From positions 372,001 to 436,000 of the forward strand of contig CAJTFG010000002.1 of NCBI GenBank assembly GCA_910575705.1: 64,000 bases of DNA, given 5' to 3'. A program made the translations under genes and the position numbers. The notes under the pieces were generated by a model. It made no database searches. It saw only the letters and a program-made list of their open reading frames with translations, and had not been told where the DNA came from. Of the stretch, positions 10,664 to 61,700 are shown piece by piece (position 1 is the first letter of the stretch; each line of letters opens with the position of its first letter). This DNA comes from Erysipelotrichales bacterium. Its GTDB lineage: Bacteria > Bacillota_I > Bacilli_A > Erysipelotrichales > Erysipelotrichaceae.

Positions 10664-12059
10664 TTATTCTTGATTTATCATTTGACGGACAACAGAGTCT
10701 TTGATAAGAAGGTTCTGTTGTTCTAATTTTTTAATTATAGATGAGAATTTTGGTAAATAATACTTATGGGCAATAAGAAGTTCATCTAATACCCTCTTTG
10801 CACTATATCCAGAAGGAATCAAAGGATTTAGAGAAAATGCTTCCAGCAATAACCCGTAATTTCCGCTGACAGCTGCCTCTATCGTACATTCTTCCATAGC
10901 TTTCATGCATTGCAACCAGCCACGCTGTGCACTCGGTAATTTCCCCCATACAACTGGCATAGCACCTTTTCCAGTAATGAAACTGCTTATTTCAACAACA
11001 GCATCTTCAGGTAATTCCGGAATAGCTCCTTTATTTTGCGTACTCACTACCATATGCGTTTTTTTTATCATTATAAATGGAATTGATGCACTCACAAGCA
11101 GCATCGCTATAGTACGCACCCCCTCGCTTGCTTAACTCCTCAGGCTTATAGCAAAGAGCCGGATCTTTATATAATTCAAATAACCTTTCTTCTGTTTCTT
11201 TTACCTGTTGACCACGTGTTCCAATTGTTTCATATTCCTCTAAAGAATGCCTTAACATTTCCTCTTGGCGGTAATAGTAACGGTGATAACCGCAAGGAAT
11301 CATCTGCATCTGCTCAATCTGTTCCCTAAAAAAGGTACATTATCAATGTTAGCCGGCAATCCTACATCTTTTCCTTGTATCATCTCTTTTATGATCTGCG
11401 ATGTAATGTCTGTTCCATCTTTTTCATATACTTTATGCCAGTGAAAATGATTCAACCCTACAAATTGATGAATCAATTCATTAGCTTGTCTGCCGATAGC
11501 GCCGGGTTCTTTCATCATGGCAATAACAGGAACATTGCAGAGCCCGATACATTTCTTCCAATTACCGTACTTTATAACCGCTTCCGTTACCATCCCACTG
11601 GGATTGGTAAAATTAATAAGCCAGGCATCCGGGCAAACTTCTTTCATATCTTCTACGATTTCCAAAATAACGGGAATTGTACGAAGCGCTTTGAATATAC
11701 CGCCTGCTCCATTCGTTTCTTGCCCCTGCATACCATATGACAATGGAATTCTTTCATCTTTTATACGCGCTTCTAAAAAAACCTACGCGGAATTGGGTAG
11801 TAACAAAATCTGCATTTTTCAAGGCCTCTTTTCGATCAAAGCTGACATGTACATTAACTGGATAGCCTGCTTTTCCCCACATTCTTCGTGCCATATTTGC
11901 ATCAATTTCAACCTTTTCTCTCCCCTCTTCTACATCTACCAACCAGATTTCTTTTATTGGAAGTTCTGGATAACGCTGTATAAAGCCTTCCATAAGCTCT
12001 GGGGTATAACTACTCCCACCACCGATCGTAACAATTTTTAAACCTTTTTTCATATTCAA
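10664..12059 (-). pseudogene. GH4 6-phospho-beta-glucosidase (LicH-like), disrupted by three frameshifts
   Basis: The four open segments read together as a family 4 glycosidase (NAD- and metal-dependent) that would hydrolyse phosphorylated beta-glucosides imported by a PTS. Recognisable in order are GGGSSYTPEL (NAD binding), DFVTTQFRVG, QETNGAGG, INFTNPSGMVTEA, GLCNVPV and GLNHFHWH (Cys and His metal ligands), PCGYHRYYY, KRGGAYYSDAA and NPLIPSGYSAKRVLDE. Reading frame is lost three times: an extra base in A7 at 11775-11781, a missing base in A6 at 11338-11343, and an extra base in T8 at 11059-11066 (plus-strand bases). Restoring one base at each site gives a continuous protein of about 460 residues. 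All three are homopolymer sites, so sequencing error or slippage is possible, but the adjacent regulator is damaged at non-homopolymer positions too. No PTS gene is next to it. Confidence 0.9.
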
Positions 12060-13069: not shown

Positions 13070-14062
13070 TTATAACTCCGCTTTCAGATCTCTTTCCATC
13101 AGATCTTGTGCAGAAAGGCGCGGTTCTTTCCCTTCATACAGAACTTTGTATACCTCATTGACAATCGGCATTTCAATTCCCTTATCGGCAGCTAACTGAT
13201 GCAGGACTTTTGCGGTACGAATACCTTCCACAGTCTTTGTGTTCGTCTTCCAGAAAACATCTGCGGTATTTGCCTTTCCAATATCATATCCTGCCTGAAA
13301 ATTACGAGAATGCACACTGGTACATGTTACGATCAAATCACCGATCCCGGTAAGTCCCATAAACGTTTCTTTACGCCCACCCATGGCAACCCCGATACGG
13401 ATCATTTCCGAAAGCCCTCTTGTAATCAATGCCGCTCGCGTGTTATCGCCATACCCCAAGCCGGATAACACACCGCTGGCTACCGCGATCGTATTTTTAA
13501 TAGCTACGCCGAATTCACTGCCGACCTCATCGTTTCCGCGATATACACGTAAATAACGATTAGAAAACACATTTTGTACTGTTTTCGCATCTTCTTCATT
13601 CAATGAAACAGCGCATATCGTCGTCAGCATCCGCAATACGACTTCTTCCGCATGAGAAGGACCGATCAGCGAAACAACGCTGCTGAGCTTTTCTTCGGGA
13701 ATGAAACGGCGGATAACATTAGACATCCGCTCATTAGTAAGCGGATGGAAACCTTTAGAAGTGTTGATCGCTATGATCTTTTTCGTCAAAAGCGGTGCAA
13801 TCTGCGTACATACATCTTCAATGGCGATCGTCGGAACCGAAAATACAACCATATCCGCATCTTTGACAACATTTAGATCCATCGTCGCTTTTATATGTTC
13901 GTTTAAAGTGAGATCTTTAAAAAATTTACGATTGTGATGCGTGCATATATCATCGATCTCATCCTTATTAACGCCCCATACCGTAACGTCTTCCTGATTA
14001 TCGGCCAATACTTGTCCCAAAGCTGTTCCCCAGCTGCCGCTTCCTATAATCACTGTTTTCAT
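13070..14062 (-). CDS. gpsA: NAD(P)H-dependent glycerol-3-phosphate dehydrogenase
   Basis: Makes sn-glycerol 3-phosphate from dihydroxyacetone phosphate for phospholipid synthesis. GSGSWGTAL (residues 7-15) is the Rossmann turn; IGPSHAEEV, GVAIKNTIAVASGVLSGLGYG (catalytic Lys in AIKN) and GLTGIGDLIVTC are family blocks. 330 residues, normal. It follows der by 12 bases in the cmk-der-gpsA order known from Bacillus. Confidence 0.95.
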   Translation of the reverse strand: MKTVIIGSGSWGTALGQVLADNQEDVTVWGVNKDEIDDICTHHNRKFFKDLTLNEHIKATMDLNVVKDADMVVFSVPTIAIEDVCTQIAPLLTKKIIAINTSKGFHPLTNERMSNVIRRFIPEEKLSSVVSLIGPSHAEEVVLRMLTTICAVSLNEEDAKTVQNVFSNRYLRVYRGNDEVGSEFGVAIKNTIAVASGVLSGLGYGDNTRAALITRGLSEMIRIGVAMGGRKETFMGLTGIGDLIVTCTSVHSRNFQAGYDIGKANTADVFWKTNTKTVEGIRTAKVLHQLAADKGIEMPIVNEVYKVLYEGKEPRLSAQDLMERDLKAEL

Positions 14063-14074
14063 AACAATATCTCC

Positions 14075-15382
14075 TTATCGTTTTTCTCTAGCTAGTATGC
14101 GCAGAGTTGTCCCTTCGAATGAAAAAGCTTCCCGTAATTGGTTTTCCAAATAACGGCGATAACTGAAATGAAACAATTCTGGATCGTTGACAAATAAAAT
14201 AAAGGTAGGCGGAGCAACGGATACCTGAGATGAATAAAATATTTTAAGACGTTTTCCATTATGGGTAGAAGGCGGCGTGATCAGCTGAGCATCATTGATG
14301 ACTTCATTTAACACACTGGTCGGTATACGTAACAAACTGCTGTCATGAACGGCATCGATCATCGGCATTATCGTCTGGATACGCTGCCTCTTGAGCGCAG
14401 ATACAAATAAAATCGGCGCGTAGCTTAAATATAAAAACTGCGTACGGATCTCCTTTTCGATCTTATGCATCATCCGTTCATCTTTTTCCACAGCATCCCA
14501 TTTGTTGTATATGATAATGACGCCTTTACCTGCTTCATGAGCATAGCCTGCCACATGCTTATCCTGTTCCCGAATACCGCTTTCCCCATCAATGACAAAC
14601 AAAACCACATCACTTCGCTCAATCGCACTCATGGCTCTTAAAACGGAATATTTCTCAATATTCTCATAAATTTTTCCGCGTTTTCGGATGCCAGCTGTAT
14701 CGATGACGACGTATTCTTTTCCCTCATGACGAAACGGCGTATCGATCGCATCTCTTGTAGTTCCCTCAATATTGGAAACGATCGTTCTGTCCTGCTGCAA
14801 AATGGCGTTTACCAAAGAAGATTTCCCTACATTTGGCCGACCGATCACACAAAACTTTGTCATTCCCTCATAATCGCTTTTTCTATTCTCATGAAAACAG
14901 GTGATCACCTGATCCAGAACATCACCCATTCCGATTCCATGAACGGCAGATACCGGCATAGGATCCCCTAAGCCAAGAGCGTAGAATTCATAGATATTGT
15001 CATTCAAAGAGATATCATCGATTTTATTCACCGCTAAAATTACCGGTTTTTTTGATTTTTGCAGCATGCGACCAATATATTGATCATCACTCGTCAGACC
15101 TTCTCTTCCACTGACGACAAAGACGATGCAATCCGCTTCCTCGATCGCAATTTCCACCTGCATGTGGATCTCATCGCGAAACGGCTGATCTTCAACTTGT
15201 ATCCCGCCGGTATCGATAACACGGAATTCCTTTGTCAGCCACTCCGCTTTTCCATAAATACGGTCACGTGTAACACCGGGAGTATCTTCTACAATACTCT
15301 TGCGTTCCCCGACCATACGGTTAAAAATTGTTGACTTTCCTACATTCGGTCGGCCAACAATCGCTACAATTCCATGTATCAT
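14075..15382 (-). CDS. der: Ribosome-assembly GTPase Der (EngA)
   Basis: Essential tandem GTPase for 50S subunit maturation. Two G domains are seen, each with GRPNVGKS (residues 10-17 and about 180-187), DTGG or DTAG switch II motifs, and NKID or NKWD G4 motifs, followed by a KH-like C-terminal domain ([21 protein letters not shown]). Length 435 is standard. It lies between cmk and gpsA, 12 and 35 bases from its neighbours, so an operon efp-side to gpsA is likely. Confidence 0.96.
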
Positions 15383-15417: not shown

Positions 15418-16077
15418 CTATCTGTGGATGGTATCCAGCAATCCGCTGATTTTTTCAACCACCTCATCAATGGTCATATTTGAAGTATCGATTTCAACTG
15501 CATCATCCGCTTTGCGCAAAGGAGAGGCTGCTCGATGAGAATCCTGATAATCACGCTTTTCAATATCACGATAGATCTCATCATATTGAGCAACGATATT
15601 TTTTTCTATGTATTCTTTATATCTTCTCTGAGCACGGGCTTCCGTGGACGCTACCATATAAATCTTCAATTCAGCATCCGGTAAAACAACGGTTCCGATA
15701 TCGCGTCCATCCATGATATATCCTTTATTCTTCGCAATTTCCTGCTGCATGGCAACAAGTTCCTGTCGAACTTTCGGGTACGTGCTGACATTGGATGCAT
15801 GCATGCTGATATCATTCGTGCGAATCTGTTTTGTCACATCCAGATCATTAACAAAAACATTCCCGTGAGGATCAAAACGGATCTCCATATCACGTATCAT
15901 ATTTGCCAAAGCATCCTCATCGGACATATTCACACCGCTGTGCAGTGCATGATAAGCAGCACACCGATACATTGCACCTGTATCCAGATGTGCATAATGA
16001 AGCTTTTCTGCTAATATTTTAGCAATCGTGCTCTTTCCTGCCGCACTGGGGCCATCAATTGCGATGTTAATCTTCAT
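15418..16077 (-). CDS. cmk: Cytidylate kinase
   Basis: Phosphorylates CMP/dCMP with [13 protein letters not shown] (residues 8-17) is the Walker [12 protein letters not shown] and [20 protein letters not shown] are CMP-binding blocks. Start 16077 gives 219 residues, matching the family; it is preceded by GGGGGA and overlaps by one base the stop of the upstream unknown gene (TGATG), so translation is coupled. A longer frame to 16155 lies inside that upstream gene and is not used. Confidence 0.95.
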
Positions 16078-17012
16078 CACAGTGTTCCCCCGGCTTTCAC
16101 CAACATGATGATAACAAAAGCGATAACACCGAGCAGCGCAAGGATCAAACAGCACAAAATAACGTTTAAGATGCGATTATTCTTCTCCACGCCATCGCTG
16201 AGATCCGTAAGTTCATCTTCATATTCATCTAATTGTCTGCGCAGCTGCTGCGTTTCTTCCACCAACTTTTGATGTAGCAGCTTCTCTCTTTGCATCTCCT
16301 GCTCGTAAGTGCTGATATCATTTGCCGCTTTCATAGGCACCTTCTGACTGACAGTCTGTGAAAATTCCCGTGAAGGAGATATCGGTTCATGAAAAAGAGG
16401 CTCTTCCTTCAAAGGTTCCTGATACTGCGGCTGTGGCTGTACCGGTGATTCATAAAAAGGTTCTTTGACAGTTTCCCTGCGTGGTATGGAAGACATGAGT
16501 CCATCTTCGTGCAGCTGCTCATACCGCGGCTGCGGATTTGTCGTTTCATCAAGCAGACTTTTTACCTCTTTCGCAATCTCTTCATTGCTCATCGTATTTA
16601 CCATATCCTCGATAGATGGAGCGGGAGCTTTTTCTTCCTTGATATCCTCTACATAATGGGAACGCGTCGGACGATTCGGCTGCAGTTGCTGCAAGATATC
16701 GATCTGCGTATCATCGCATTCTCTGGTACCTTTTTTCAAATTATACTGTTTTACCTCATTCAAAAAATCATCCAGATACTCATTTTGAAAATCGTTTACC
16801 GTATCCTCCGGTTCTGAGATCCTAGTAATCTTCTCTCTTTCCGGCATATGCGGCTGTTCCTCTTCAAAATTCATCTTTTTAAAGATAGAAGCATGAACAT
16901 CGCTCATCCCCTTATCATATCCATCTGTTCTATTATTCTGGCTTTCATCCATTCCCGTATCAATATTTTTTCTCAATTCCTCATATTTTTTAACTCTTGA
17001 TAACTTTTCCAT
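16077..17012 (-). CDS. Unknown tail-anchored, coiled-coil membrane protein
   Basis: I do not recognise this 311-residue protein. It opens with MEKLSRVKKYEELRKNID, continues as a long polar, Pro/Glu/Gln-rich, probably disordered stretch with repeated PQ/EP motifs, then a coiled coil (about residues 235-275, EQEMQREKLLHQKLVEETQQ) and one C-terminal transmembrane helix (NVILCCLILALLGVIAFVII) followed by a few residues. This is the layout of a tail-anchored or single-pass cytoplasmic scaffold. GGGAGG 9 bases before the ATG is a good ribosome site. It is translationally coupled to cmk. Coupling to cmk and der hints at a growth or division role, but that is only inference. Confidence 0.75.
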   Translation of the reverse strand: MEKLSRVKKYEELRKNIDTGMDESQNNRTDGYDKGMSDVHASIFKKMNFEEEQPHMPEREKITRISEPEDTVNDFQNEYLDDFLNEVKQYNLKKGTRECDDTQIDILQQLQPNRPTRSHYVEDIKEEKAPAPSIEDMVNTMSNEEIAKEVKSLLDETTNPQPRYEQLHEDGLMSSIPRRETVKEPFYESPVQPQPQYQEPLKEEPLFHEPISPSREFSQTVSQKVPMKAANDISTYEQEMQREKLLHQKLVEETQQLRRQLDEYEDELTDLSDGVEKNNRILNVILCCLILALLGVIAFVIIMLVKAGGTL

Positions 17013-17139: not shown

Positions 17140-17703
17140 TCATTCTTTTGAACGTCCGGAATATTTCCCATCCGAAGTATTAATCAAAATCACTTCGTCC
17201 TGAGAGATAAACAGCGGAACTTTTACTTCCAATCCCGTTTCCAAAACGGCATTTTTGGAAGCGGAAGTAGCTGTATCCCCTTTTACTGCCGGTTCGCATT
17301 CTACCACGCGCAAAGAGACCTTATCCGGAAGGATTACACCTAAGATCTCTCCTTCAAACATAGAGATCATCACGTTATCATTCGGCTTTAAAAAATTAAT
17401 CTCCCATTTCAAATTATCCTTCAAGACCTCAATCTGCTCATATGTCTCATTATCCATGAAGATCAAAGCATCATCGCTATCATACAAATACTGCATTTCC
17501 TTTTTATCGATATGCGCAGGAGCTACCTTATCTCCTCCCCCAAAAGAAAGCTCTACATTTGCTCCGGAGCGCAGATTTCTGACTTTTGCTTTTACGACCA
17601 TGGCAGATCTTGCCGTTTTATTCTGACTCTGTTCCAAAACAACAAAGATCTCTCCATCTTGCTGTATGGTCATTCCCGGCTTTAAATCATTTGAACTTAT
17701 CAT
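17140..17703 (-). CDS. efp: Elongation factor P, with Arg at the loop-tip position 32
   Basis: Relieves ribosome stalling at polyproline. The 187-residue protein has the usual KOW-like domain I and two OB-type domains; the signature near the C terminus (INTSDGKYSGRSKE) is canonical. An ungapped comparison with Bacillus EF-P puts Arg32 (NKTARSAMVV) where Bacillus has the modified Lys32 (VKPGKGAAF). Arg32 is typical of the rhamnosylated subfamily known from Pseudomonas and Neisseria. No earP-like gene is in this window. A TTGACA hexamer sits upstream (17760-17765, minus strand) but without a well-spaced -10. Confidence 0.95.
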   Translation of the reverse strand: MISSNDLKPGMTIQQDGEIFVVLEQSQNKTARSAMVVKAKVRNLRSGANVELSFGGGDKVAPAHIDKKEMQYLYDSDDALIFMDNETYEQIEVLKDNLKWEINFLKPNDNVMISMFEGEILGVILPDKVSLRVVECEPAVKGDTATSASKNAVLETGLEVKVPLFISQDEVILINTSDGKYSGRSKE

Positions 17704-17782: not shown

Positions 17783-18112
17783 CTACATCAGACTTTTAAA
17801 GCGGATACTGCTTACAAACACCATCGTGGTAACAAAGGTAATGAGATAAATGTATGTAAAAAGAGAAAAGCTGCTTTGAGAAGCAAAGCTATGATAAACG
17901 GCATAAAACAAAAGACTGGCAAAAAGGCATACGACAAGATCACGAATTTCTACCGTTCGGCAGGTTGCCTTATGATATATACAGCGCAATATGATCAGAT
18001 AAAAAAGACACGGAATTATCAGATAATACGATACGCTTTCCAAAAACATCAACATGTGCCCCAACCCCAGAAAAAAGCAAAAACTCAACAAAGCAACAGA
18101 GAAATTTAACAT
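17783..18112 (-). CDS. Small membrane protein at the end of the comG operon
   Basis: A 109-residue, very hydrophobic protein with about four membrane segments (roughly residues 3-22, 28-44, 58-74, 82-103) and a few Cys and His in the loops. It has a good GAGGTGATATC ribosome site and begins 15 bases after the comGG stop, so it appears to be the eighth gene of the comG transcript. I do not recognise it. It is not a pseudopilin (no prepilin motif) and too small for a prepilin peptidase, which lacks the needed Asp motifs here. Confidence 0.6.
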   Translation of the reverse strand: MLNFSVALLSFCFFLGLGHMLMFLESVSYYLIIPCLFYLIILRCIYHKATCRTVEIRDLVVCLFASLLFYAVYHSFASQSSFSLFTYIYLITFVTTMVFVSSIRFKSLM

Positions 18113-19077: not shown

Positions 19078-19447
19078 TATAACCACTTCCCAACTGAAAA
19101 TAGAAACATGCCTGCTGTGAGCGATAATAGAAACAGATCGTCTTTGCCTGTGATATGGTTCCATCCTCATAAAACCGCAAGGAAAAGACATCCGATGTAA
19201 TTCCTCGGCGATATGGAAAGCGATGATGATCGATCAAAAGCGCATCGGACGCAAAGGAAAAAGTAACTGTTTCATGCTTTTGCATCGCTTCGATATGCGC
19301 TTGTACCAAATATTCGCGTATACGTTCCATCTCTTCTTGCAAATAAGACGGAACTGGCGCATATATGCTGAAAAGCAATATCAGAAAGCTTGTCAGACAT
19401 AATACGAGGACGGTTTCCATCAACGTAAACCCACGGCTATCGCACAT
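19064..19447 (-). CDS. comGD: ComGD-like minor pseudopilin
   Basis: 127 residues beginning MCDSRGFTLMETVLVLCLTS, a standard class III signal with the cleavage after Gly and Glu at +5. The C-terminal region has the alternating beta-strand pattern of GspH/ComGD (HRFPYRRGITSDVFSLRFYE). ATG at 19447 is preferred to a GTG three codons earlier. It overlaps comGC by 11 bases. Confidence 0.8.
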   Translation of the reverse strand: MCDSRGFTLMETVLVLCLTSFLILLFSIYAPVPSYLQEEMERIREYLVQAHIEAMQKHETVTFSFASDALLIDHHRFPYRRGITSDVFSLRFYEDGTISQAKTICFYYRSQQACFYFQLGSGYIDIR

Positions 19448-19733
19448 GCGCTTCACCGTCGAAGATTTCTATCTTATCACCGTTGGGGCAACGACGCTGG
19501 CTTTCTTTTAAATACCCTCCCGATATGAGATCATCCATGCTTTGCGGCGGCTGCAACATTTCGATTTCAAATAACAAAGCTTGTGCATTCACGACCTCAA
19601 CAAGCGCCTCACAACCTTTTGACTGGATGATCTCCTGTTTCTGACGTATATTAGGAAGCGTCAGTAAAAACAGCAAAGCGATGATCGATAACACGATGAT
19701 CATCTCTAAAATGGTAAATCCCTTTTTGTTCAT
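19437..19733 (-). CDS. comGC: ComGC, major competence pseudopilin
   Basis: 98 residues; MNKKGFTILEMIIVLSIIAL is an ideal class III leader with a short basic n-region, cleavage before Phe and Glu at +5, and the rest is a compact helical protein as in ComGC. It would polymerise into the pseudopilus that pulls transforming DNA through the wall. The window has no prepilin peptidase gene, so ComC must lie elsewhere. Confidence 0.9.
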   Translation of the reverse strand: MNKKGFTILEMIIVLSIIALLFLLTLPNIRQKQEIIQSKGCEALVEVVNAQALLFEIEMLQPPQSMDDLISGGYLKESQRRCPNGDKIEIFDGEAHVR

Positions 19734-19745
19734 AACTTCTCCTTT

Positions 19746-20717
19746 CTACATAGTTTCCAACAACTGTAACGGTACCAGCAAAATCTGATAGACCATAATA
19801 ACCAAGCATCCGACAAATCCATAGGAAGCAGTCTGTATGAGCACACTCATACGACGCATAAGCATCATCCATCGTTCTTCCTGAAAAACGATATAATCTT
19901 CCAGACATTCTTTCAGCGTTCCGGTCTTTTCGCCGATGGAGAAATTCATGCGAAGCGTATCGCATATATATGGATGCTTATCTATGACAAAAGAAAGATC
20001 CTTTCCTTCCTCCATCGCTTGTTGAAGAGACTTTGCAAAGAAGACGAACATCGGCCTGCCCTTCAGCGATATCAAAAAAAAGATCGCTCGTTTCGTAGAT
20101 AACCCCTCTTCTTCCAGTTCTTTTAAATAGCAAGCAAAGACATAGCTGATATATTCCTTACATAGCGGGATACAAAGAAGGCGTGGCATGTACTTTTCAG
20201 GAATCTTGTATATTTTACATACAATAAAGAACATGAGAGCACCTCCGCTCAAACAGGTGATTCCATAGTATATCAGTTTTAAAAAGAAGAGCGTAGTCAT
20301 AAAAAACATATCGCTCATCTCTTCTAAAAAGCCCAAAAGCAGCTGGGGGATGATCAGATGAAGAAAGAACGCTAAAGTCACATAAGCGAAATAAAATATA
20401 AAAAGCGGATATGCGGTTTGTTTCTTCAGTTTTTTCTTTATTTCCTTTTCAAATACGGCCATGCGAATAGAACAACGGATAGCACTGGAAAAAGAAGTGA
20501 CTCTAAGGAAAAACAAGAGATGTCTTTTCAAAATTGCCGGAGCATGCGTGCATATTTCCTGCTGCATGCCCAATCCCTGTCGCATGCTATCTTCTATCTC
20601 TCGCGTATCCTTTTGCAGGATGTGCAAGCACTCGATAAGCGGATATCCCTTATACAGGAGCTTCGCTAAATATTCCCATTCATGCATCTTCCAAATCGTA
20701 GAACGCTTCTTTGGCAT
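19746..20717 (-). CDS. comGB: ComGB, pseudopilus platform membrane protein
   Basis: GspF/PilC-family inner membrane platform. 323 residues from ATG 20717 (MPKKRSTIWKMHEWEYLAKL), which aligns with the usual ComGB N terminus; other starts at 20687 or 20831 are possible. Three hydrophobic segments (near LFIFYFAYVTLAFFLHLIIP, FLKLIYYGITCLSGGALMFF and the C-terminal SYGFVGCLVIMVYQILLVPL) match GspF topology, and FSIGEKTGTLKECLEDYIVF is the conserved family segment. It overlaps the end of comGA. Confidence 0.88.
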   Translation of the reverse strand: MPKKRSTIWKMHEWEYLAKLLYKGYPLIECLHILQKDTREIEDSMRQGLGMQQEICTHAPAILKRHLLFFLRVTSFSSAIRCSIRMAVFEKEIKKKLKKQTAYPLFIFYFAYVTLAFFLHLIIPQLLLGFLEEMSDMFFMTTLFFLKLIYYGITCLSGGALMFFIVCKIYKIPEKYMPRLLCIPLCKEYISYVFACYLKELEEEGLSTKRAIFFLISLKGRPMFVFFAKSLQQAMEEGKDLSFVIDKHPYICDTLRMNFSIGEKTGTLKECLEDYIVFQEERWMMLMRRMSVLIQTASYGFVGCLVIMVYQILLVPLQLLETM

Positions 20718-21672
20718 CGATAAGTTGCTGTTCAACAGCGTCGTGAATCTCTTTTTGAATTGTCTTATGCTTTTTTGACGGTTTTCCCGAGATAAAAAAC
20801 TCCTCAAGTTCCTGTCCGGCAAGAATCTCATAAATGCAAGTCCTCTCCTTTCGTTTATAACGGATGCACAAGCGCTGCGCAGCGATCCCTTTTATGACCT
20901 CATGCAATTCATAGCGTGAAAGGCCAAGTTCCTCCATACGATAAAGTGCTTCATAAGCGTCCTTGGCATGGATCGTAGAAAACACAAGATGTCCTGTCAG
21001 CGCACAGCGGTATGCCATTTTCGCAGTATCCCGATCACGTATCTCTCCCAACATGATCACATCCGGATCATGACGCAAAAGCTGGCGAATCCCTTCTTCA
21101 TATGTAAAACCCGCCTTTTCATTGATCTGCAGCTGTAAATAGTGATCATCGATGATTTCGATAGGATCTTCTAAGGTAATCACCTTTCTGTTTTGCTTCA
21201 CCGATATCAAGCGCAGTAATGTATGCAGCGTCGTTGTTTTCCCCGACCCCGTAGGACCGCACATGAGCAATAATCCCGTACGATAGCATATCCATTTTTG
21301 AAATACGGCGATGCTGCTTTTTTGAACGCTCAGCTGCTCCAGCCGTTGAATGCTGTGGTTATTTAAAATACGCAGTACCCCGGTCTGCGTCTGGATCGTC
21401 GTCAAAACGGAAAAGCGAAAGAAGTATCGTTTCCCATCATATATATGAGTAAAACGCCCCGATTGCGGCTCATTGGAGTTTGCCAGATCCAGATTGCTGA
21501 TATATTTCAAATAGTGATACAGTCTTTCATCGATCCGTGCATCCCGCAGTCGTTCCATACCGCGCATCCCTCGCATCTGTACGCGCAGTTCCTCATGCTG
21601 AAAAACAAAATGAACATCACTGGCCCGCTGTGACAGCATCAGATAAACAAGATAGTTCAGCCTTTCTTCCAT
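20680..21672 (-). CDS. comGA: ComGA, competence pseudopilus assembly ATPase
   Basis: GspE/PilB-family hexameric ATPase that powers pseudopilus assembly. From the ATG at 21672 (GAGGTGATAT upstream) it has 330 residues: N-terminal domain 1-100, Walker A GPTGSGKT at 139-146, Asp box ITLEDPIE, Walker B VIMLGEIRDRDTA and His box. The longer frame to 21795 crosses the terminator of the upstream MATE gene and is not used. First gene of an eight-gene operon with overlapping frames. Confidence 0.93.
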   Translation of the reverse strand: MEERLNYLVYLMLSQRASDVHFVFQHEELRVQMRGMRGMERLRDARIDERLYHYLKYISNLDLANSNEPQSGRFTHIYDGKRYFFRFSVLTTIQTQTGVLRILNNHSIQRLEQLSVQKSSIAVFQKWICYRTGLLLMCGPTGSGKTTTLHTLLRLISVKQNRKVITLEDPIEIIDDHYLQLQINEKAGFTYEEGIRQLLRHDPDVIMLGEIRDRDTAKMAYRCALTGHLVFSTIHAKDAYEALYRMEELGLSRYELHEVIKGIAAQRLCIRYKRKERTCIYEILAGQELEEFFISGKPSKKHKTIQKEIHDAVEQQLIDAKEAFYDLEDA

Positions 21673-21726
21673 CCATATCACCTCATCATATCTATACGGA
21701 TCCTCTATGAAAAATCCTAAAGAAAT

Positions 21727-21758
21727 AAAAAAAACATATCCGCGACGATGCGGATATG
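21727..21758 (-). terminator. Terminator of the MATE gene
   Basis: CATATCCGC/GCGGATATG, 9 bp perfect with a 6-nt loop, followed on the minus strand by T8. It isolates the comG operon from the gene upstream. Confidence 0.85.
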
Positions 21759-21773
21759 CAAAAGAAATCTTGA

Positions 21774-23177
21774 TCAAACTTGTATATAGACCCATTCGCC
21801 TTTATGAAAACGAAGATGAGACAGCGCATAGCGAATAAGCTGATCCAAAAATAAGGAAATCCATGCTCCCATAAGTCCCCAAGCAAACGGAAAGCAAAAG
21901 AGCCATGTCAAGATCGGACGAATAACAGTAACGCTGATCAAAGAGATGAGAGCGGTATATTTGACATCCCCTGCACCCCTAAGACTTCCAAATGTAATGA
22001 CCTGCGTAATCTGAAACATCATGGTAATCGCTATGACAAACATGATCTGCGATCCCATTTGGATGATTGCTCCTTCATCGGAAAACAGAGCGATGATCGG
22101 CACACGGAATACGCACATGAATAATCCCAAGAAAAAACCGAGCAGCATCCCGATTCGACGGGTAGCCTTGGAATATAGGATAGCCATATCGCTTCGTCTC
22201 TCTCCGAGGCTTTGCCCAACCAAGGAAGAGGTAGCTATCGATAAGCCGTCTCCAACGGAAAAAGAAATCGTCATGATATTCATACATACCTGATGAGCCG
22301 CAAATTCTATCATGCCTAACGCAGCTACTGTCTTTGCATATGTAAAAAAGCCGATACGCATAAATACCTGCTCAATAAACGCCGATGAGGAGATGCGGTA
22401 CAGATCCGATAATGTCCTCCGGTCAAAATGCCAATCTTGATTCCGTTGAATATACAGAAAACCTCTTTTATGAAAAACGGAGCATATCGACATGATGCAA
22501 GCTGCTACATTTCCGATAGATGTTGCAAGCGCAGCGCCCGCCACTCCCATCTGCGGAAAGATGCCGATGCCGTTGATTAACAGATAATTAAAAAATAAGT
22601 TTAAACCATTAGCAGCCAGATTCGTACGCATGCTGATTTTTGTATTGCCGCACCCTCTTTGCGCCGCATTGATCGTCATGGATATACAATTAAAAAAGTT
22701 ACCAACCATCAAGATTTGAAAATATGTGACCGCAAGATCGACATATCCCGGTAAAGCACCGGCCAAGATCAGGATATCCCGCGCAAAAAAGAATCCCGCT
22801 AACGATAATAGGAATGACGTTCCAGCTGTTAATAGGATCGACTGCCGTAAACAACGGTTAGCGCTATCTGCATCCTTTTGCCCCTTCCTACGGGAAACGA
22901 TGACGGTAACCCCGACATTCAGCGACATGATCACCGCCAGAATAATGAACTTCGGCTGATTGCATATTCCTACAGCGGCAATCGCATCCGCTCCGATCCC
23001 TCCTACCATGATAAGATCAACGGCGCCGATCAGTGATATCAAAACCGATTCCATCATACTCGGCCAGGCAATTTGAAATGTACGTCTGTAAATCGTCTCA
23101 TCGTTTGGAATATCACCGATGATCTGTTCCTGGCGCAGCATTTCCTTGCAGCAAAACAGTTTACGTAACAATCCCAT
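21774..23177 (-). CDS. MATE-family efflux transporter
   Basis: A 467-residue multidrug/toxin extrusion antiporter of the NorM/DinF type, in the cytoplasmic membrane, with about 12 membrane helices in two matching halves. The typical start of the first half, FQIAWPSMMESVLISLIGAVD then MVGGIGADAIAAVGICNQP, and FVIAITMMFQITQVITFGSL in the second half identify the family. AAGGGG lies before the ATG. Substrate cannot be told from sequence. It has its own terminator and precedes comG. Confidence 0.88.
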   Translation of the reverse strand: MGLLRKLFCCKEMLRQEQIIGDIPNDETIYRRTFQIAWPSMMESVLISLIGAVDLIMVGGIGADAIAAVGICNQPKFIILAVIMSLNVGVTVIVSRRKGQKDADSANRCLRQSILLTAGTSFLLSLAGFFFARDILILAGALPGYVDLAVTYFQILMVGNFFNCISMTINAAQRGCGNTKISMRTNLAANGLNLFFNYLLINGIGIFPQMGVAGAALATSIGNVAACIMSICSVFHKRGFLYIQRNQDWHFDRRTLSDLYRISSSAFIEQVFMRIGFFTYAKTVAALGMIEFAAHQVCMNIMTISFSVGDGLSIATSSLVGQSLGERRSDMAILYSKATRRIGMLLGFFLGLFMCVFRVPIIALFSDEGAIIQMGSQIMFVIAITMMFQITQVITFGSLRGAGDVKYTALISLISVTVIRPILTWLFCFPFAWGLMGAWISLFLDQLIRYALSHLRFHKGEWVYIQV

Positions 23178-60844: not shown

Positions 60845-61603
60845 TTATCCGACAAAGCCGCCGTCCACCGAGAGAACCGCTCCGGTAACATAGGAAGCCA
60901 TATCGCTCGCCAGAAAAAGAAATGCATTGGCAATATCTTCAGGTTCTCCCAAACGCTGTATAGGAATCCCTGCCGCCATACCAGCGATCAACTTCGGATC
61001 CAGTGCTCTTACCATATCCGTTGCTATGATCCCCGGAGCGATCGCATTAACGCGAATACCGTCTTTCCCGAGTTCTCTGGCCAAAGACTTCGTCATCCCG
61101 TTTACCGCAAATTTGCTCGCAGGATAGGCAACACCGGATTTCTGTCCAAAAATGCTTACCATGGAACTCGTGTTCAAAATGACTCCTCTGCCTTTTTCTT
61201 TCATGATCGGTGCCACCTGGCGAATCATATGGAACATAGAATCCACATTGATATTCATGACCTTATGAAAATGTTCCTCATCATAACTGTATAAAGGTGT
61301 CGCATCGGATACTCCGGCATTATTGATCAAAATATCGATCGTACCAAAATCACGAAGGATCTCCGCTACCGTTTCTTTCACGCTCTCCACGCTCGTGAGA
61401 TCAGGATGATATCCTTTTACGTCATAAGACGTATCCACCTGTTTTAACTCCTCCAGTGCATGATGAACCGTTTCTTCACGAGAACCGAACATCGCGACAT
61501 GAGAACCGGCATCCAAAAAAGCTTTTACCACCGCAAAACCGATGCCCCGCGTACCTCCCGTTACTACAACTACCTTTCCTTTCAACGAATCAAATGCTGC
61601 CAT
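60845..61603 (-). CDS. Short-chain dehydrogenase/reductase (FabG-like)
   Basis: 252 residues. TGGTRGIG NAD(P) turn near residues 15-22, NNAG, Ser in LNTSSMVS, and YPASK catalytic Tyr and Lys; C-terminal VDGGFVG. Reduces a 3-oxo group; could be 3-oxoacyl-ACP reductase or a sugar/alcohol dehydrogenase. No fab genes nearby. ATG 61603 follows AAAGGAG. It sits downstream of spoVAF (gap 97 bases), perhaps on its own promoter. Confidence 0.85.
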   Translation of the reverse strand: MAAFDSLKGKVVVVTGGTRGIGFAVVKAFLDAGSHVAMFGSREETVHHALEELKQVDTSYDVKGYHPDLTSVESVKETVAEILRDFGTIDILINNAGVSDATPLYSYDEEHFHKVMNINVDSMFHMIRQVAPIMKEKGRGVILNTSSMVSIFGQKSGVAYPASKFAVNGMTKSLARELGKDGIRVNAIAPGIIATDMVRALDPKLIAGMAAGIPIQRLGEPEDIANAFLFLASDMASYVTGAVLSVDGGFVG

Positions 61604-61700
61604 TAAAACAACTCCTTTCGCTATTTCTATGTACACTATAGCATATTCACAAAGGATTGCAAACGTTTTCATATCGGATGATCATCGCCACTGTAAGCAT

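Follow-up and report, generated by a model that had tools for sequence, protein, structure and literature searches.

An arginine-tipped elongation factor P in an Erysipelotrichales bacterium, probably working without modification, belongs to a clade free of lysine tips

The gene for elongation factor P (EF-P) lies on the minus strand of the window, the stretch of 64,000 nucleotides from an Erysipelotrichales gut bacterium that was analysed here, and the plus-strand reading of 17140-17703 is interrupted by stops. Its surroundings comprise housekeeping genes on the downstream side and a pilus cluster on the upstream side:

13070-14062, GpsA, housekeeping context (Pfam)
14075-15382, EngA/Der, housekeeping context, with cytidylate kinase on its efp side (Pfam)
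15418..16155, minus strand, cytidylate kinase, housekeeping context (Pfam)
16077..17012, minus strand, downstream neighbour of 311 amino acids without a Pfam match
17140..17703, minus strand, efp, elongation factor P of 187 amino acids, sole copy in the genome (open reading frame list, TIGR00038, Pfam domains)
17599..17619, minus strand, computed codons of the beta3-beta4 loop K29-T30-A31-R32-S33-A34-M35, loop position from the AlphaFold2 model
17608..17610, minus strand (read 17610-17608), AGA codon of the tip residue Arg32
17783..18112, minus strand, upstream neighbour of 109 amino acids without a Pfam match
19437-19733, N_methyl, comG-like pilus cluster beyond the 109-residue neighbour
19746-20831, T2SSF, same cluster
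20680-21795, T2SSE, same cluster

The 187-residue protein scores 224.8 bits against the NCBIfam efp model TIGR00038 (cut-off 185.8) and contains all three Pfam EF-P domains (KOW, OB and C-terminal OB). It fails the YeiP and EfpL models with 111 and 124 bits against cut-offs of 264 and 216. A Foldseek search with the EF-P model returns EF-P structures as top matches, including the EF-P of Staphylococcus aureus, which has the same fold and shares 45-48% identity in the structural match. The nearest EF-Ps among the best 80 of 127 matches on named contigs are those of Longicatena and Amedibacillus dolichus at 86-88% identity, which makes Erysipelotrichaceae the most likely family of the genome. 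The genome (1.845 Mb in 11 contigs, rated 100% complete) contains no other EF-P over the cut-off in a PF08207 search, and PF01132 gives a single match. Elsewhere in the window, successive short frames at 10664-12059 on the minus strand appear by eye to be one frameshifted family-4 glycosidase gene.

The initial annotation had placed arginine at position 32 of this Firmicute EF-P, and the assignment holds. The site is occupied in most bacteria by a lysine that is chemically modified. In a phmmer alignment with S. aureus EF-P (6rji) the window loop NKTARSAMVV aligns without gaps, so that Arg32, encoded by AGA, falls on Lys32 and Lys29 on Lys29. In the AlphaFold2 model (mean pLDDT 88) strand beta-3 spans residues 18-29 and beta-4 residues 35-43, which puts residue 32 at the centre of the modelled turn and makes Lys29 the last residue of the strand; together with the alignment this rules out the alternative in which Lys29 forms the loop tip. 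The lengthened beta3-beta4 loop characteristic of EfpL and YeiP is absent, the protein being gapless against EF-Ps with a seven-residue loop. With Thr30 and Arg32 the window EF-P lacks the lysine tip with proline at -2 of the 5-aminopentanolylated type, and it carries the pattern of EarP substrates, an arginine tip with no proline at -2. The glycine at -1 that EarP substrates need is absent, and Ala31 stands in its place.

The emphasis of the initial annotation on one odd Firmicute does not survive, as an arginine or methionine tip is the state of a whole clade. An alignment across relatives, proposed there as a check, gives KTA[RM] loops and never lysine: in the best 80 of 127 relatives from a contig scan the loop reads KTARSAM in 29, KTAMRQM (methionine at position 32) in 48, KTARSQM in two and KTARSAT in one. 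With such recurrence the loop of the window EF-P is no chance feature, and Arg32 is invariant within the KTARSAM group among the relatives listed. In a census of the class, 239 genomes gave a match and the loop was read in 90 of them (30 taken automatically and 60 picked to span the families other than f3); second copies from 11 genomes were added, as was the one copy that G017 has. Across the resulting set of 112 rows for the tree, ten named relatives included, residues 30-32 are Pro-Gly-Lys in 45, Thr-Ala-Met in 30, Thr-Ala-Arg in 19, Gln-Gly-Arg in six, and Ser-Gly-Arg and Ser-Ala-Arg in four each, with TGR, SAN, TAK and a gapped loop once each. Every row with Pro30 has Lys32, and lysine occurs at the tip in one of the 67 rows without Pro30. 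Three entries stand apart: the loop of L175 (G443) aligns with a gap which leaves its tip residue unsure; the EF-P frame of L159 (G270) contains one in-frame TAG, attributable to recoding, a pseudogene or an error; and G041, from the window's family and 99% complete, has no EF-P match by protein or PF01132, either through loss or through an assembly gap.

The careful tree was built with the loop columns removed and with 27 of the 112 rows omitted as near-copies or long branches. It recovers a clade of 45 rows with 25 arginine tips, 20 methionine tips and no lysine (bootstrap 100, SH-aLRT 96), drawn from families f1 (that of the window), f2, f5, f16, f8 and f19; a quick tree of all 112 rows contains the same clade with 59 rows (SH-aLRT 96). 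Most of the efp genes listed for f5 and f16 carry an in-frame TGA, as expected in Mollicutes, and it is from this that the name Mollicutes-like is inferred for these two families; arginine tips are retained in their very small genomes of 0.7-0.9 Mb. The closest group outside the clade is f10, with the loop KPGKGSA. The loops KSARSAA and KSARSGA of f9 and K[ST]ARSGA of f11 are placed among lysine-tip rows in the careful tree, which gives this type of loop more than one origin. The rows with tip loss outside the clade (L136, L137 and L176 in f9; L141 and L180 in f11; L155 in f17, with KSANSMA) suggest that the Pro-Gly-Lys tip was lost independently in f9, f11 and f17. The four tip states require seven changes on the tree.

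The searches for earP, epmA and ymfI-type genes that had been suggested with the initial annotation give nothing over the cut-offs in the window's own genome. EarP (PF10093) is absent over the cut-off from this genome and from 247 genomes of the class; the controls were silent too, so the class-wide negative leans on a match of 272.7 bits in G177, the only one among 244 genomes of the order. The earP gene of G177 (L083, contig C126) lies on a contig of 5.25 kb in an 87%-complete assembly of the window's family, directly upstream of an EF-P with the loop KSGRNAA that shares 32% identity with the window EF-P. The short contig and the divergent, EarP-type EF-P make this look like contamination, with transfer as the alternative, and G177 EarP was set aside as a genuine member of the order. 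RmlC (TIGR01221), which is needed for the EarP donor dTDP-rhamnose, is absent from the window's genome. Of 26 arginine-tip genomes searched, 9 do have RmlC above the cut-off, which restricts the argument from the rhamnose donor to the window genome and does not let it stand for the clade. The searches for EarP and EpmA used family models alone; the best match in the window's genome to the EpmA model reaches 216 bits (cut-off 286.9) in a frame of 498 amino acids, which points to a LysRS-like protein. For YmfI the best match in the genome is as follows:

60845..61672, minus strand, match to the YmfI model NF047420 with 179 bits against a cut-off of 238

This candidate was not counted as YmfI, since it scores higher as a general SDR of the FabG/glucose dehydrogenase type. 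None of 68 genomes exceeds the cut-off of NF047420, those with lysine tips included, and the model is therefore useless as a test of presence; one control passes, presumably B. subtilis in view of how the model is defined.

The YnbB family (PF06838) is more informative. Matches occur in 23 of 80 genomes, of which the 15 full-length ones (506-552 bits) were counted and the eight partial ones (25-33 bits; G000, G008, G018, G030, G043, G273, G313, G416) left out. Full-length YnbB is present in 15 of 35 genomes with a lysine tip versus 0 of 45 without (Fisher p about 5e-7, kinship ignored), the latter including one asparagine tip (G346) and the gapped loop of G443; within f1 and f2 the counts are 12 of 12 versus 0 of 18. 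The window's own genome (G000) has no full-length YnbB and only a partial PF06838 match of 26 bits. YnbB is likewise missing from 20 of the 35 lysine-tip genomes, so an arginine tip cannot be read from its absence alone.

A second EF-P with Lys32, which would have displaced the arginine form as the main version, is not found in the window's own genome by PF08207 or PF01132, yet both kinds coexist in 11 related genomes. Fifteen genomes, mostly picked for two EF-P matches, were inspected for a second EF-P, and 12 of them encode an EF-P with the loop KPGKGAAIL (L231-L242) that is about 37-41% identical to the window EF-P; it is a second copy in 11 and the sole EF-P in G017. Each of these 12 EF-Ps is followed on its own strand by a short-chain reductase, 197-235 bases past the matched EF-P domain. 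This reductase scores higher against general FabG models and is YmfI-like by position only. In 11 of the 12 the lysine-tip EF-P has a full-length YnbB-family gene at a distance of 1.0-6.2 kb; in G017 that gene lies elsewhere, near a contig end. One such region is L231:4510-9229, where the lysine-tip EF-P, the short-chain reductase and a nearby PF06838 gene are found together with a PnuC-like transporter upstream. In B. subtilis the 5-aminopentanol modification of Lys32 is reported to require both ynbB and ymfI (PMC5885033). Wherever these families have a B. subtilis-type kit, it thus accompanies the lysine-tip EF-P and not the arginine or methionine one. The lysine-tip copies, nine of 12 of which were kept in the careful tree, form one clade (100/100) that mixes genomes of f1 and f2, which suggests horizontal transfer; EF-P, reductase and YnbB resemble a cassette for EF-P modification that moves horizontally. 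Both the second EF-P and a full-length YnbB are missing from the window genome. The idea that the resident EF-P diverges faster in genomes with a second copy was also considered and dropped, because it is unsupported in f1 (permutation 0.33) and the f2 test (permutation 0.02) compares four with four related rows, kinship uncorrected.

The genome's valyl-tRNA synthetase (ValRS) retains its PPP motif and PP motifs are kept in window proteins; with a sole EF-P, the ValRS motif implies that some form of polyproline rescue is needed. The initial annotation had aptly asked whether EarP, another modification or none serves Arg32, and of these EarP has become the weakest option. Absence of modification is the most likely answer because neither EarP nor RmlC is found, Ala31 replaces glycine and relatives carry methionine tips. 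These tips, in sister lineages, stand on the same N-K-T-A stem, and methionine is not a possible acceptor of the known lysine or arginine modifications. The window EF-P is probably an ordinary housekeeping factor whose tip works without post-translational extension. The guanidinium of a bare Arg32 would make the contacts made elsewhere by a modified lysine, and an unmodified Arg32 would touch the tRNA and the factor would rescue ribosomes stalled at polyproline. Precedents are Arg32 of Thermus, for which a contact with C75 of the tRNA is described (PMC2821294), and R33 of E. coli EfpL, reported to be unmodified by mass spectrometry and functionally needed, the R33K form failing (PMC11611912). 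Counter-evidence comes from E. coli EF-P, where a bare K34R is given as having 20% activity and G33A as abolishing function, and from P. putida, where EF-P without modification is described as either inactive or inhibitory and function also depends on G31 (PMC6544042). Since the E. coli loop works poorly with bare arginine and G33A and G31A are harmful, the KTARSAM loop would have to be tuned differently.

The same observations weigh on the other explanations. With no recognisable EarP, EpmA or full-length YnbB in the genome, an enzyme of a kind as yet undescribed may still modify Arg32, for example with another glycosyl or acyl group. That full activity of most characterised EF-Ps is reported to need an extension (PMC6544042, PMC5885033) argues for such an enzyme, as does the weakness of bare arginine in the P. 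putida and E. coli mutant loops (PMC6544042), but it is unlikely, given that a dedicated arginine-modifying enzyme could not tolerate the swap of arginine and methionine on the same stem, that arginine tips are kept in Mollicutes-like genomes of 0.7-0.9 Mb, and that Pfam finds no domain linked to EF-P modification among the examined neighbours of efp, the two immediate ones lacking any match. Alternatively, polyproline rescue may have been lost and EF-P may have a role independent of the tip, for instance alongside an ABC-F ATPase of the YfmR type. B. subtilis EF-P K32A is reported to support growth without YfmR while failing on polyproline (PMC11381351), and two proteins of the window's genome with the ABC-F C-terminal domain PF16326 are YfmR candidates; this is nevertheless quite improbable, as the sole EF-P coexists with the PPP of ValRS and the PP motifs of window proteins, and Arg32 does not vary within the KTARSAM group, which looks like selection. 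Rhamnosylation by an EarP that the model misses through divergence would agree with the arginine tip, the lack of proline at -2 and the RmlC matches in 9 of 26 arginine-tip genomes. It was rejected as scarcely credible: the model detected a genuine EarP, that of G177, with 272.7 bits, the window's genome has neither EarP nor RmlC, and in P. putida G31A is reported to lower in vitro rhamnosylation to below 1% of wild type, so that Ala31 speaks against an EarP substrate (PMC6544042).

An unmodified arginine tip remains the preferred reading, and with it goes a probable single loss of the Pro-Gly-Lys tip in an ancestor shared by Erysipelotrichales, the Mollicutes-like families, in which TGA is read, and two further families, after which the tip became arginine or methionine. 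A wider scenario is offered with more hesitation. In it that one event would have ended tip modification and left the whole clade translating polyproline with a bare arginine or methionine. Some members would later have gained, beside the resident bare factor, the mobile cassette of lysine-tip EF-P, short-chain reductase and YnbB-family enzyme, whose EF-P is the sole one left in G017, and the K[ST]ARS switches in two other families would suggest a repeatable route from modified lysine to bare arginine. Taken as a whole, this tentative scenario has somewhat less than an even chance of being right.

EF-P is usually said to need a tip extension in order to work. If the reading is true, a clade-wide, lysine-free and apparently enzyme-free EF-P, including that of very small genomes and of methionine-tip sisters, would show the extension to be dispensable. 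The loops of the clade would be natural variants to test, and in relatives that have a bare EF-P beside a probably modified one the two could be compared directly in one cell. Arginine EF-Ps have been listed for Thermus, Deinococcus and Borrelia, the last given as without EarP (PMC4739656), and a survey of 1166 sequences reports tip frequencies of 0.77% for methionine and 14.75% for arginine (PMC6544042). An arginine tip without EarP is already known from Thermus and Borrelia, and the surprise is limited. Literature searches identified no prior description of Erysipelotrichia or Mollicutes EF-P tips, and in the literature searched none was found of the lysine-free clade as a unit, the KTA[RM] loop or the separate lysine-tip cassette with YnbB. 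Brewer and Wagner reportedly treated horizontal transfer of EF-P in 2024, which may overlap in part with the present findings.

Among known EF-Ps, that of Thermus thermophilus (1ueb, 4v6a) shares the Arg32 tip and the lack of proline at -2, but its loop KLGRGGA keeps Gly31 and it belongs to a different phylum; its Arg32 contacts with C75 and 23S rRNA have been described as an adaptation to the lack of modification (PMC2821294). Borrelia burgdorferi likewise has Arg32 and is listed without EarP (PMC4739656), although it is a spirochaete. The EarP-type Arg32 EF-Ps of Pseudomonas, Shewanella and Neisseria also combine an arginine tip with no proline at -2, yet they require EarP, dTDP-rhamnose and glycine at -1, in contrast to a window genome without EarP or RmlC and a protein with Ala31. 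E. coli EfpL and YeiP resemble the window EF-P in their arginine tip, reported for EfpL as unmodified by mass spectrometry (PMC11611912), whereas the loop of EfpL is longer and EfpL is found alongside a modified EF-P, and the window protein fails the models of both. The Lys32 EF-Ps of B. subtilis and S. aureus have the same fold as the window EF-P, in which their Pro30-Gly31-Lys32 is replaced by Thr-Ala-Arg in a genome without full-length YnbB or a YmfI over the cut-off.
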